Below are positions 21,615 to 25,480 of a DNA stretch of 49,281 bases, one piece after another. Origin of the DNA: Candidatus Tayloriibacteriota bacterium (GTDB lineage: Bacteria; Patescibacteriota; Minisyncoccia; Phycocordibacterales; PALSA-1337); NCBI GenBank assembly GCA_028286665.1, contig JAQBRD010000013.1, forward strand, positions 1 through 49,281, in the 5' to 3' direction. The position numbers were made by a program, and so were the translations under genes. Positions within the stretch are counted from its first letter, which is position 1. Each line of letters starts with the position of its first letter. The notes beneath the pieces are model-generated. The model saw nothing but the letters and a program-made list of their open reading frames with translations, made no database searches and was not told the DNA's origin.

Positions 21615-21980
21615 ATGAAAAACGAAACATGCATCTTCTGCAAAATCATCGCTCGCGAAATTCCGTCGACCGTCGTCTATGAAGACGATCGCTTCATCGC
21701 ATTCCTCTCGATTGCGCCCCGATCTCCGGGACATACGCTCGTCGTGCCGAAGGAGCATCACCGATGGGTCTGGGATGTGCCGCAGTTCGACGAATGCTTC
21801 GCTCTCGCTCGTCGCATCGCGCTCGCGCAGCGGAAGGCTTTTGGCCAAGACCTCATCTGCTCGCACGTCGAAGGCGAAGAAGTTCCCCACGCGCACATCT
21901 GGGTCTATCCGGATGTTACTACCGCAGGAGACAAAAAGGATTTTGTTGGGAATGCGAAGCGAATCATCGAGAAGCTCTAA
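21615..21980 (+). CDS. HIT-family protein
   Basis: A protein of 121 residues related to nucleotide phosphoramidases and Ap4A hydrolases. The N-terminal C-I-F-C-K-I zinc pair, the A-P-R-S-P-G-H-T-L-V-V-P-K segment and the E-V-P-H-A-H-I-W-V motif place it in the family. The usual histidine triad is H-x-H-x-H; the third position is Trp here. The middle histidine, normally the nucleophile, is present, so activity may remain. TATACT lies 6 nt before the ATG, again suggesting a leaderless mRNA. Its stop overlaps the convergent trpA gene by 4 nt. Confidence 0.9.
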   Translation: MKNETCIFCKIIAREIPSTVVYEDDRFIAFLSIAPRSPGHTLVVPKEHHRWVWDVPQFDECFALARRIALAQRKAFGQDLICSHVEGEEVPHAHIWVYPDVTTAGDKKDFVGNAKRIIEKL

Positions 21981-22735
21981 CGATCGAGGGGAGGTTTCAT
22001 GCTCTTCAAGAGTTTCGCTGCAGCATCTTCGCCCCCGCCGCTACTGAACGCCCTCAGAAGCGCGCTTCCGACCACCGCGATATCAGCGAGGCCAGCGACC
22101 GCCTCAACATCTTTGCGGGATGAAATGCCGAAACCGAGCGCGATTTTGATATCCGACTGCTTCCGAATCGCTTCGATGACCTTTTTCAGATCAGCTGAAA
22201 TGGAAGTCTGTCCGCCGGTCGTTCCCCGCTTCGTCGTGCAATAGATCATTCCTTGGGAGCAAGCGATGGATCGTTTCAGACGATCTCCGCTCATTGAGGG
22301 TGAAACTACCTGGATCAGATTCAGTCCATATTTCTTCGAGCATGCGAGCAGCTCTTCGCCCTCTTTCGAATCGAATGGCAGATCGGGGACGATGAGTCCT
22401 GAAACTCCTGCCGCCACAGCCTGACGGCAGAAGCTGTCGATGCCGATGCTCATGATGGGATTCGAGTACGACATGATTACGATCGGTACACCGAACTTCG
22501 AAACCTTATGACAGAAAGCGAATATTTCTTTCGATCTGAATCCGTTCTTCAATGCGACATGGCAGGCTTCGACGATCGTCGGACCGTCCGCGACCGGCTC
22601 GGAAAACGGCATCTGGATTTCGAGGATGTTTGCGCCAGAGGCAGCGAAGGTTTCCGCGAGCCTGAGAGAAGCGCCGGTGTCCGGATATCCAGCGACGAGA
22701 TGCGCCATTATTTCAATCTGTTTTGCATTTTTCAT
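21977..22735 (-). CDS. trpA: Tryptophan synthase alpha subunit
   Basis: A protein of 252 residues that splits indole-3-glycerol phosphate into indole and glyceraldehyde-3-phosphate. The catalytic Glu (about 40) and Asp (about 50) sit in L-E-I-Q-M-P-F-S-E-P-V-A-D-G-P-T-I-V. G-L-I-V-P-D-L-P-F near 120, G-T-T-G-G-Q near 176 and L-G-F-G-I-S near 207 are the usual loop-6 and phosphate-binding segments. It starts 13 nt after trpB. No other trp genes are in the window, so indole glycerol phosphate or indole must come from elsewhere. Confidence 0.96.
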   Translation of the reverse strand: MKNAKQIEIMAHLVAGYPDTGASLRLAETFAASGANILEIQMPFSEPVADGPTIVEACHVALKNGFRSKEIFAFCHKVSKFGVPIVIMSYSNPIMSIGIDSFCRQAVAAGVSGLIVPDLPFDSKEGEELLACSKKYGLNLIQVVSPSMSGDRLKRSIACSQGMIYCTTKRGTTGGQTSISADLKKVIEAIRKQSDIKIALGFGISSRKDVEAVAGLADIAVVGSALLRAFSSGGGEDAAAKLLKSMKPPLDR

Positions 22736-22748
22736 AGTGCTGTTTATA

Positions 22749-23975
22749 TCAGTAGTTAGTTATTTCTTCCTTGAGAAAATCGCCGAATTTCTCGTCCTTG
22801 AGCGCTCGAGCGATATTGAATATGTCCTTGTCGCCTCTGCCGGAAATATTGACGACGAGCAGCTGGTCCTTGCGCATCTTCGGAGCGAGCCTCATCGCAT
22901 GCGCGAGCGCGTGGGATGATTCGAGCGCAGGAATGATGCCCTCGAGCTTGCAGAGCATGCTGAAAGCATCGATTGCTTCGACGTCGGTTGCGGAGACAAG
23001 GCCGAGGCGCTTGCGCTCGTAGAGGTCGGCTAATTCTGGACCGAGGCCTGGATAATCAAGTCCTGCAGCGACGCTGTGCGTCGGGGCGATCTGTCCGTCC
23101 TCGTCCTGGATGACGAGCGATTTGTATCCTTGGAATATGCCGAGCTTTCCAAATTCTGATCTTGAAGCATTGAAGCCTTTCTTTCGTCCCGTGCCGCCAG
23201 CTTCGACGCCGATGAGCACGACCTTCTCATCTGGAATGAATTCCGCGAACGCCCCGATGGCATTGCTGCCACCGCCCACGCAGGCGACGATGGCATCGGG
23301 GCCTTTCCCTTCGCGCTTCAGCAATTCTGCCTTGATCTCCTTTCCGACGATCGACTGGAACTCGCGATTCATCGTCGGATACGGATGCGGACCGAGCACA
23401 GAACCGAGGACATAGTGGCAGCCTTCGATATTATTCATCCAATACTTCATCGCTTCATTCACTGCATCCTTGAGCGTCTTGCTGCCGTAGTCGACTGGGA
23501 CGACTTCGGCTCCAAGGCGCTCCATGAAGAAGACGTTCGGCCGCTGGCGCCGCATGTCGGTCGATCCCATGAAGACTTTGCATTTGAAGCCGAACTTCGC
23601 AGCAACGGTCGCAGTCGCGACGCCGTGCTGCCCTGCTCCTGTTTCAGCGATGAGCTTATCCTTGCCGAGACGCTTCGCGATGAGGGCCTGGCCGATGCAA
23701 TGCGTGATCTTATGAGCGCCCGTATGATTCGCGCCTTCGTTCTTCAGGTAGATCTTCGCTCCTCCGAGCTTCTTCGTCAGATTCGCTGCTAAGATGAGCG
23801 GCGTCGGCCTGCCGGAGAAATCCTTCAGCATCGATCTGAATTCATCCTTGAATTCCTTCGACCGCATCGCCTTGTCGAAAGCATCTGACAGCTCCTGCAG
23901 CGGCGCAGTGAGCATCTCGGGAACATATGCGCCTCCGTACTCTCCGAAAAATCCTTTGTTCACATTTTTTTTCAT
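22749..23975 (-). CDS. trpB: Tryptophan synthase beta subunit
   Basis: A PLP enzyme of 408 residues that joins indole and serine to tryptophan. The start F-F-G-E-Y-G-G-A-Y-V-P-E, the PLP lysine in N-H-T-G-A-H-K-I-T-H, the E-T-G-A-G-Q-H-G-V-A-T-A segment and the phosphate loop V-G-G-G-S-N-A-I-G identify the TrpB1 type that pairs with TrpA. The lysine is usually followed by I-N-N; here it is I-T-H, and the preceding residues are E-G-A rather than E-D-L. It follows the small gene at 24075 by about 100 nt, in a unit headed by a T-box. Confidence 0.96.
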   Translation of the reverse strand: MKKNVNKGFFGEYGGAYVPEMLTAPLQELSDAFDKAMRSKEFKDEFRSMLKDFSGRPTPLILAANLTKKLGGAKIYLKNEGANHTGAHKITHCIGQALIAKRLGKDKLIAETGAGQHGVATATVAAKFGFKCKVFMGSTDMRRQRPNVFFMERLGAEVVPVDYGSKTLKDAVNEAMKYWMNNIEGCHYVLGSVLGPHPYPTMNREFQSIVGKEIKAELLKREGKGPDAIVACVGGGSNAIGAFAEFIPDEKVVLIGVEAGGTGRKKGFNASRSEFGKLGIFQGYKSLVIQDEDGQIAPTHSVAAGLDYPGLGPELADLYERKRLGLVSATDVEAIDAFSMLCKLEGIIPALESSHALAHAMRLAPKMRKDQLLVVNISGRGDKDIFNIARALKDEKFGDFLKEEITNY

Positions 23976-24074: not shown

Positions 24075-24290
24075 TCAGCCGATCAGTTCGTATCCGATAT
24101 CGCCGCGGCGGTTCTGTTCCGCGAGCAATTGCCCGTACCAGAGAATCGTCGCCTGCCGCTGTTCCCGTTTCCGGTCTTCAGTGGATCCAGCGAATTTTTC
24201 TGCATAATACGGCTTGAGTTTTTCCCTGATCTCCTCGATAGTCATCGGGGGTTCGGGAATATCCGACGCGAGCATTGCGAATTCATCCAT
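24075..24290 (-). CDS. Small hypothetical protein between a T-box and trpB
   Basis: A protein of 71 residues starting MDEFAMLASDIPEPP, or 82 residues from an in-frame ATG at 24323. The downstream ATG has AAAGGA six bases before it, the better ribosome-binding site. The sequence is hydrophilic, mostly helical in appearance, with M-T-I-E-E-I-R-E-K-L-K-P-Y-Y near 15-28 and a basic R-K-R-E-Q-R-Q segment. No signal peptide or known domain is seen. It lies directly after the T-box terminator, so it is the first gene under that control. Its function is unknown. Confidence 0.55.
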   Translation of the reverse strand: MDEFAMLASDIPEPPMTIEEIREKLKPYYAEKFAGSTEDRKREQRQATILWYGQLLAEQNRRGDIGYELIG

Positions 24291-24340: not shown

Positions 24341-24700
24341 AAAAAACCCCTCGTCTATTCACCTGCAAAAAGCAGATAAAGGGACGAGGAATCTCGTGGT
24401 GCCACCCTTGCTTCCGAAACAAGATCCGCCGCACTGGCAGGCTCCCGCTTCGCTTATCGACTCATGCGCCTTTCGGCAGACATCGATTTTCCCTTGATTA
24501 CGGAGGAATCCGGATCTCCACTTGCGCAGAGATCTTCCTGCCTTTCGGCGAACCAGGCCCAATCCCCCACACCGCAGGGGACCTGATTCTTGGAATTTAT
24601 CTGGGAATATCATATCCCCGCTGGAAATCTTTTGCAAGCTCTCCTGCAAACAGAGTCTCCATGGGCTTTGACTAAAAAGCCCGATTGAAGCAATATGACT
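24341..24700 (-). promoter_or_regulatory. T-box riboswitch (tRNA-sensing leader)
   Basis: The antiterminator is unmistakable: AAGGG (24409-24405), the 7-nt bulge TGGCACC, ACGAG, a short loop, then CTCGT and CCCTT. The alternative terminator pairs CCTCGTC (24389-24383) with GACGAGG (24355-24349), followed by TTTTTT. In T-boxes the bulge TGGN pairs with the NCCA end of uncharged tRNA; N is C here, so the tRNA should have discriminator G73, as tRNA-Trp does. Upstream is a long Stem I-like hairpin (GAATCAGGTCC / GGGCCTGGTTC) with a GGTG-containing apical loop. The specifier codon could not be placed with confidence. Tryptophan is inferred from trpBA. Confidence 0.85.
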
Positions 24701-24754: not shown

Positions 24755-25480
24755 GTGAAAAAACAAAAAGAAGAAGGGAGACACCCCTTCCTCGCAACAC
24801 TGCTCGACGGATCGGATGCTTCATGGGAATCGATCGAGCCTCGGATACTCGTCTGCGGCTTCGAACGATTCGGACCATATCCGGAAAACTCGACGCAGCT
24901 GCTTGCCGAAAGCATCGAGGGGAAGCAGATCGGCGAACACAAGATATTCACCATGATCTTCCCGCCGACGATTCCCGAAGAAGACCGCGGAATGGCTGCA
25001 TTCGAAAAAGCGAGAGCCATCGATGCGCTTGGCATCGTCTGCCTCGGCATGGGTTCTGAGAAACCGGGCTTATGCATCGAGACGGCGACATTCAATCGTA
25101 TCGACAATGCGACATACTGCCCGCCGGAACTGAATGGCAGTTCGATTCGCACTGATCGGCCGCGTCACGAAGGCCTGTCGCTCGATATCAACAGATGGAA
25201 TATCCAAGCCTTTCGCAAAAAGGCAGCTCAGGAGGGCATCACGACTGCCCTTTCGATAGATCCGGGCGGATACTGCTGCAATCATCTGATGTATCAGATG
25301 CGGCTGGCTCAGGAATTCCATATGAATCGAGATACGCCCTGGATCTATATCCACGTGCCCTGCTCTCCGGAATGCATTCCGAAGCCGCTCGGCGGATTCA
25401 AGAAAAAAGGAAAAGTATTCCTTCCGATCAAGACGCTCGAACGAGGGCTAGCATTGCTCCTCGAGAATGCGTCCCTTTAG
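24755..25480 (+). CDS. pcp: Pyroglutamyl peptidase (peptidase C15)
   Basis: A protein of 241 residues that removes N-terminal pyroglutamate from peptides. L-V-C-G-F-E-R-F-G-P-Y-P-E-N-S matches the family start G-F-x-P-F-G. The catalytic triad can be placed as Glu in I-E-T-A-T-F-N, Cys in D-P-G-G-Y-C-C-N-H and His in I-H-V-P-C-S-P-E. The GTG start has a strong Shine-Dalgarno AAGGAGG four bases before it, which is rare in this window. Arginine codons are mixed, with only a few CGA. It is divergent to the T-box transcript and may have been acquired by transfer. Confidence 0.88.
   Translation: MKKQKEEGRHPFLATLLDGSDASWESIEPRILVCGFERFGPYPENSTQLLAESIEGKQIGEHKIFTMIFPPTIPEEDRGMAAFEKARAIDALGIVCLGMGSEKPGLCIETATFNRIDNATYCPPELNGSSIRTDRPRHEGLSLDINRWNIQAFRKKAAQEGITTALSIDPGGYCCNHLMYQMRLAQEFHMNRDTPWIYIHVPCSPECIPKPLGGFKKKGKVFLPIKTLERGLALLLENASL

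Follow-up and report, generated by a model that had tools for sequence, protein, structure and literature searches.

A Short-Stem-I T-Box Leader, Very Likely Sensing tRNA-Trp, Ahead of trpBA in a CPR-Like Genome

The Locus and Its Host

The window, i.e., the whole stretch of 49,281 nucleotides that was analysed, carries on its minus strand a T-box leader (about 24341-24601) ahead of a 71-aa open reading frame (orf71), trpB and trpA. An earlier reading made without any database search, below called the sequence-only reading, had proposed a T-box ahead of a small gene and trpBA, and this gene order held. The genes and the promoter-like site are arranged as follows.

24609-24637, minus strand: promoter-like site TTGCAA-17-TATGAT, sigma-70-like (1 found against 0.3 expected in shuffles; function inferred from sequence alone)
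24075-24290, minus strand: 71-aa ORF with an ATG start, first of the operon (no Pfam match)
22749-23975, minus strand: trpB, tryptophan synthase beta (TIGR00263, 576 bits, cut-off 392)
21977-22735, minus strand: trpA, tryptophan synthase alpha (TIGR00262, 197 bits, cut-off 102)

The window genome comprises 0.93 Mb, and uL30 is absent from 31/31 genomes of its family and order while present in 13/14 controls. Loss of uL30 is a hallmark of the Candidate Phyla Radiation (CPR). Because of the genome size and the uL30 loss the host is regarded as CPR-like, as had been supposed. Alongside trpB, trpA is found in the window genome (G000) and in G083. In none of the five genomes with both trpB and the element (G000, G083, G126, G160, and G193), which are incomplete, was trpC (IGPS) found, so the operon probably completes tryptophan from an imported, salvaged indole or precursor, an inference as good as these incomplete genomes permit. 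A divergent gene at 24755-25480 on the plus strand, by eye pyrrolidone-carboxylate peptidase-like, starts about 120 bases from the promoter-like site.

Architecture of the Leader

An Rfam E-value search aligns the T-box model RF00230 end to end (model positions 1-219) with 24377-24600 on the minus strand, at 35.9 bits and E 2.1e-6. The sequence-only reading would have been refuted by the lack of such a match. The score is far below the RF00230 gathering score of 93 bits, and the leader would therefore be missed by routine annotation: at the gathering threshold, Rfam gives zero matches in the window. This curated cut-off (>=93 bits) is likewise missed by every relative. An RF00230 scan of the genome returns the leader as its sole T-box, and its folding lies 7.6 sd below dinucleotide shuffles.

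The leader starts at about 24601, 8-10 nt past the promoter-like site, where the first base of Stem I lies; the predicted transcription start is placed there by that site and shares its purely sequence-based footing. The range first proposed, 24341-24700, thus held at its lower end and extended too far upstream at its upper end, and 24601-24700 was rejected as a part of the T-box, since the element begins at about 24601 with the promoter-like site upstream. The parts of the leader are listed below in the direction of transcription.

24535-24597, minus strand: Stem I domain, a basal stem UUCC/GGAA around the specifier hairpin and a second small hairpin, forming a three-way junction (helix 1 covaries, 4/4 pairs)
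24554-24585, minus strand: specifier hairpin CAGG-UCCCC...GGGGA-UUGGG-CCUG with a 5-nt 3' bulge at 24558-24562 (helices 2 and 3 with double-sided changes in 11/13 pairs, 97% paired)
24559-24561, minus strand: specifier codon UGG (Trp), followed by the purine G24558 (UGGG in 60/60 alignable relatives; trp genes downstream)
24540-24549, minus strand: second junction hairpin GCC-GAAA-GGC, 3 bp in the window (hairpin of >=4 bp in 52/60 relatives, variable in sequence)
24513-24534, minus strand: Stem II with the internal motif UGC / AGUG (5/6 pairs changed on both sides; UGC...GUG invariant in alignment A1, described below)
24489-24512, minus strand: Stem IIA/B pseudoknot CGG-A-UUCCU-CCG-UAAUCAA-GGGAA with an F-box-like CCGUAA (pseudoknot helix 6 covaries)
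24456-24487, minus strand: Stem III (helix 7, double-sided changes in 5/5 pairs)
24410-24455, minus strand: variable linker, unconserved among relatives
24379-24409, minus strand: antiterminator with A1 AAGGG/CCCUU, the 7-nt bulge UGGCACC (24398-24404) and A2 ACGAG/CUCGU (sequence and RF00230 match)
24401-24404, minus strand: UGGC, predicted partner of the 3' GCCA of tRNA-Trp with G73 (N = C 47 / U 17 of 64; G73 in 18/18 tRNA-Trp)
24341-24389, minus strand: competing intrinsic terminator with a 7+9 bp stem and T6 (-24.5 kcal/mol alone; counterparts in 61/64 relatives)

On the minus strand the antiterminator (24409-24379) reads AAGGG-TGGCACC-ACGAG-ATTC-CTCGT-CCCTT and the terminator (24389-24341) reads CCTCGTCCCTTTATCTGC...GACGAGGGG-TTTTTT, overlapping the antiterminator. 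The segment CUCGUCCCUU is common to both, so the two structures are mutually exclusive. The antiterminator has the textbook T-box form, its 7-nt bulge between A1 and A2 conforming to the general UGGNACC. The claim of a complete antiterminator with a TGGCACC bulge and a competing T6 terminator was therefore upheld by the sequence, the fold energy and the RF00230 match.

Relatives and Structural Support

Weak RF00230 matches, none above the cut-off, occur in 35/100 related genomes, which refines the expectation that a T-box in a CPR-like genome would be unusual: the element is not rare in this lineage. By inspection, the matched leaders fall into two kinds. In the first, Stem I is ultrashort and the gene that follows is aspS, thrS, serS or ileS. 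The second kind comprises ten leaders, counting the one in the window; these are longer, and trpB and trpD are among their downstream genes. In G083 the second kind precedes a trpB-trpA-trpS operon.

The ten leaders of the second kind, the window's among them, form the alignment A1, from which the covariance model R1 was built. The structure tested on A1 consists of the basal stem, the specifier hairpin with its 3' bulge, Stem II, the IIA/B pseudoknot, and Stem III. In A1, 95.1% of 386 cells are paired and 28/39 pairs are changed on both sides; 0/500 shuffles match it on any measure, and slid structures pair at most 58%. In a larger alignment of 36 sequences, which was fitted to the model and hence is biased towards it, as A1 was not, 32/39 pairs have changes on both sides, again with 0/500 shuffles as good, and slid controls pair at 53% or less. 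The arms of the pseudoknot alternate together (UCCU/AGGA, UCCC/GGGA, UCUC/GAGA, UCGC/GCGA, AGCUC/GAGCU), and with this covariation and CCGUAA the T-box criterion of a IIA/B pseudoknot with an F-box is met. The helices of this RNA family are thus backed by strong covariation.

R1 finds 32 matches in 30/397 genomes of the order, and it matches 23/384 genomes of the class and 8/380 of the phylum, the window's own genome being included in all three counts; in total, R1-type switches are present in about 60 related genomes. A second model, R2, was built only from the class and phylum matches with the window sequence excluded. It finds the window at 24598-24452 on the minus strand (119 bits, E 8e-28), with no other match in the window. 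R1 scores the window leader, part of its training set, at 143 bits, the third of 36. No R1 match was obtained in 72 TrpB loci from other phyla, so a source outside the CPR was not found among them.

Specifier and Downstream Genes

In all 60 alignable sequences the 5-nt bulge is UUGGG, CUGGG, GUGGG or -UGGG, i.e., UGG followed by the purine expected behind a T-box specifier. The shortest relatives (L273, L274, and L276) lack the distal helix and carry UGGG in the apical loop. A specifier that clearly is not UGG would have refuted the sequence-only reading, and this was not encountered.

According to tblastn over 1.5-3.5 kb downstream, the trp genes among the 68 R1 loci are TrpB (8), TrpS (7, one of which, at L272, is a weak match that looks like TyrS), TrpE (6), and TrpD (5), such that TrpB, TrpS, TrpD or TrpE is present in about 25 of these loci. 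The same search found none of AspS, ThrS, SerS, and IleS there. The ultrashort T-boxes show the reverse arrangement: 27/28 lie ahead of aminoacyl-tRNA synthetase genes of other amino acids (AspS in 19, the rest ThrS, SerS or IleS), tblastn found no trp genes downstream of the 28, and the loop triplet, read by eye, tracks the gene (ACC for thrS, GAC or AAC for aspS, AUC for ileS). A full TrpB is encoded in nine genomes of the order, and in five of them the element immediately precedes trpB (co-occurrence P 2e-4). The remaining four lack the element, so the control of trpB by this element is not universal. In over half of the R1 loci, no Trp link is known for the genes that follow.

Several further arrangements were observed. 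Some aspS ultrashort T-boxes carry AAC (Asn) rather than GAC, and the ultrashort T-boxes of CPR relatives (L002-L029, L069-L074) have intrinsic terminators in 22/28. At L290 and L294, trpB lacks the Trp T-box; the leader there is of another, hairpin-like type and may be a control element of its own. Behind the Trp T-box, the gene of L084 best matches the tryptophan dehydrogenase ScyB (305 bits, below cut-off); a GCS2/YbdK-like carboxylate-amine ligase recurs with an AstE/AspA-like deacylase after it (L067, L086, L088, L092, L100, L284); and in L063, L064, and L068, of the window's family, two small uncharacterised proteins of about 133 and 77 aa follow directly.

A family of 250-277 aa proteins also lies behind the Trp T-box in relatives (L079:1853-2611, L259:1822-2613, L065, L066, L091, L094). 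Sequence searches against Pfam, NCBIfam and PDB returned nothing for it. By structure, the AlphaFold model of the family (pLDDT 92) is similar to cyclodipeptide synthases and to the Tyr/Trp-tRNA synthetases of class Ic (best E 1e-3; TM around 0.45-0.5). On the strength of this predicted model, the family could conceivably be an enzyme that uses Trp-tRNA and is itself under a tRNA-Trp switch.

Discriminator Base and tRNA Genes

Of 64 leaders, 47 have C and 17 have U as the variable base N of the T-box bulge, and none has A or G. The tRNA-Trp of relatives with R1-type leaders has G73 in 18/18 cases, to which the C of the window is complementary. The thrS T-boxes have N = A in 6/6, and the tRNA-Thr of the window genome has U73. 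A tRNA-Trp gene was not found in the incomplete assembly of the window genome (~94% complete; 28 tRNA matches recovered), and is presumably missing due to this incompleteness. The proposed comparison with the genome's own tRNA-Trp was consequently made with the 18 relatives, and on their tRNAs the claim that the C in TGGC fits G73 held.

Three genomes have a tRNA-Trp gene close to a Trp T-box, no more than about 200 bases away (G075:C2:38866, G289:C63:3233, G133:C16:19659). The window genome also contains a 157-base tRNA-like match (G000:C28:45284-45440) with an insert in or near the anticodon arm, which is not called by ARAGORN.

Comparison with Known T-Boxes

Canonical class I T-boxes (long Stem I, RF00230), such as the trp and glyQS leaders of Firmicutes, have several traits in common with the window leader. 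The specifier sits in a bulge on the 3' side with a purine after it, Stem II and Stem III accompany a IIA/B pseudoknot with the F-box-like CCGUAA, and a UGGN antiterminator competes with a terminator. By contrast, the window leader lacks the distal double T-loop module with which they bind the tRNA elbow: distally, its Stem I is only a hairpin whose variable loop mostly measures 5-20 nt, which does not satisfy the criterion of interdigitated double T-loops. Transcriptional T-boxes are said generally to require a long Stem I with this module (PMC7583486). The window leader also presents its specifier in a 5-nt bulge of an ordinary helix, not in an S-turn specifier loop, and in Stem II it has UGC/AGUG, conserved in the family, where canonical class I has the S-turn GAA/AGUA.

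A K-turn lies at the base of Stem I in nearly all T-boxes, and whether any T-box can function without one has been raised as a question (PMC7583486). Where canonical class I has its K-turn, the window has a three-way junction; a third helix occupies this site in the window and most relatives (hairpin of >=4 bp in 52/60), and a GA/GA K-turn signature, absent from the window leader, was recognised by eye in the short relatives L103, L105, L272-L274, and L276. The k-junction has the topology of such a third helix (PMC4005666), and a k-junction at the base of Stem I can be entertained as a possibility. The G.A pairs flanking the third helix are unconserved, and by eye a strict k-junction fits only some relatives.

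In Actinobacteria, the translational class II T-boxes of ileS, whose Stem I is ultrashort or short, resemble the window leader in having Stem II and the IIA/B pseudoknot without the elbow module. They differ in that the window uses a transcription terminator and a tryptophan specifier; the class II criterion of a sequestered ribosome-binding site is not met, an intrinsic terminator being present instead. The specifier is a side bulge in long or intermediate Stem I and lies in the apical loop in short Stem I (PMC7583486). The R1 family shows both placements, and its shortest members, with UGG in the apical loop, are in this respect like the short Stem I T-boxes of Actinobacteria. Outside Firmicutes, trp genes are also under T-boxes in Dehalococcoides (trpE and trpB-like; Chloroflexi, a different phylum; PMC2494555). 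The Rfam trpB ncRNA motif RF04312 also lies upstream of trpB, with a match in Vagococcus (L119), but has no match in the window leader, even at E up to 10.

The window leader thus has the features of all T-boxes wherever they can be tested, yet is neither canonical class I nor translational class II, and the plain T-box reading is refined accordingly, as the form is not the canonical one with a long Stem I.

Proposed Mechanism

The leader is very likely (probability about 0.93) a cis-acting, transcriptional T-box riboswitch that senses tRNA-Trp. The analysis directly shows the RNA family with its helices, the presence of UGG and UGGY, two competing hairpins, and an association with trp genes; the binding of tRNA, the sensing of its charge, and the switch are inferred by analogy from established T-box biology, without expression or binding data. 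In this model, the anticodon CCA of tRNA-Trp would pair with the specifier UGG (24559-24561) in the 5-nt bulge of the short Stem I hairpin, flanked by Stem II and the IIA/B pseudoknot. The 3' GCCA of uncharged tRNA-Trp would pair with UGGC (24401-24404) and stabilise the antiterminator, such that RNA polymerase reads through into orf71-trpB-trpA. With charged tRNA-Trp, the more stable terminator (24341-24389) would form and transcription would stop. A tRNA-controlled tryptophan synthase, as the sequence-only reading had envisaged, is thus supported as an interpretation. A strong hairpin that overlaps the 3' arm of the antiterminator and ends in a T run is present in 61/64 leaders, and the switch is therefore regarded as transcriptional. 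Against the overall reading stand the sub-threshold Rfam score, the lack of a tRNA-Trp gene in the assembly, the majority of R1 loci whose downstream genes have no known Trp link, and the Stem II S-turn consensus and K-turn, both of which are unrecognisable.

Alternative Explanations

One alternative is that the T-box governs the translation of orf71 and trpB rather than termination. In its favour, the short-Stem I T-boxes described so far are mostly translational (PMC7583486). However, the GC-rich hairpin overlaps the antiterminator and ends in T6, as in nearly all relatives, and the antiterminator ends about 90 nt before the operon's first start codon, which makes translational control very unlikely.

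A second possibility is a decayed or newly acquired stray element without function in the window genome. The leader is the genome's only T-box and the cognate tRNA-Trp is missing from the assembly, but every helix is intact, the R1 score is among the family's highest (with the window in training), R2 detects it without the window, and the same position before trpB is occupied in four other trpB genomes. This explanation is hardly tenable either.

A third alternative, a T-box for another tRNA, e.g., with a Gly specifier GGC in GCCGAAAGGCA (24539-24549), draws on a local resemblance to GAAAGGCA, the known glyQS specifier context, and was rejected as very improbable, since relatives have a hairpin of varying sequence at this place, all 60/60 of them keep UGGG with trp genes behind, and the U73 of bacterial tRNA-Gly is incompatible with UGGC.

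Implications

As transcriptional tRNA-Trp T-boxes, these leaders likely constitute a previously unlisted family with an unusually short tRNA-reading stem, its novelty being limited to the open-access literature searched. There, no report of T-boxes in CPR, Patescibacteria or Parcubacteria was found; subscription journals and TBDB supplements were outside the scope. A survey without CPR genomes (PMC2494555) lists T-boxes in Firmicutes, Actinobacteria, Chloroflexi, Deinococcus, and two Proteobacteria, and TBDB was compiled from Rfam, other lists, and an Actinobacteria scan (PMC7778990).

A bolder reading, towards which the evidence leans moderately, is that the CPR has a structural T-box class of its own. 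Its members would be transcriptional switches without the elbow module, with the specifier in a 5-nt bulge or in the apical loop of a minimal Stem I and with the basal K-turn replaced by a three-way junction. The tRNA-Trp regulon would comprise trp genes and uncharacterised families, one with a predicted cyclodipeptide synthase / class Ic tRNA synthetase fold.

The finding places tRNA-sensing riboswitches in the Candidate Phyla Radiation, with a phylum-wide spread hidden under the Rfam cut-off. The R1-type RNAs offer natural tests of the need for the elbow module in transcriptional T-boxes and of the need for the K-turn (PMC7583486). The invariant UGG also provides a handle on function, as a connection with tryptophan or its tRNA is probable for the uncharacterised genes that follow it.
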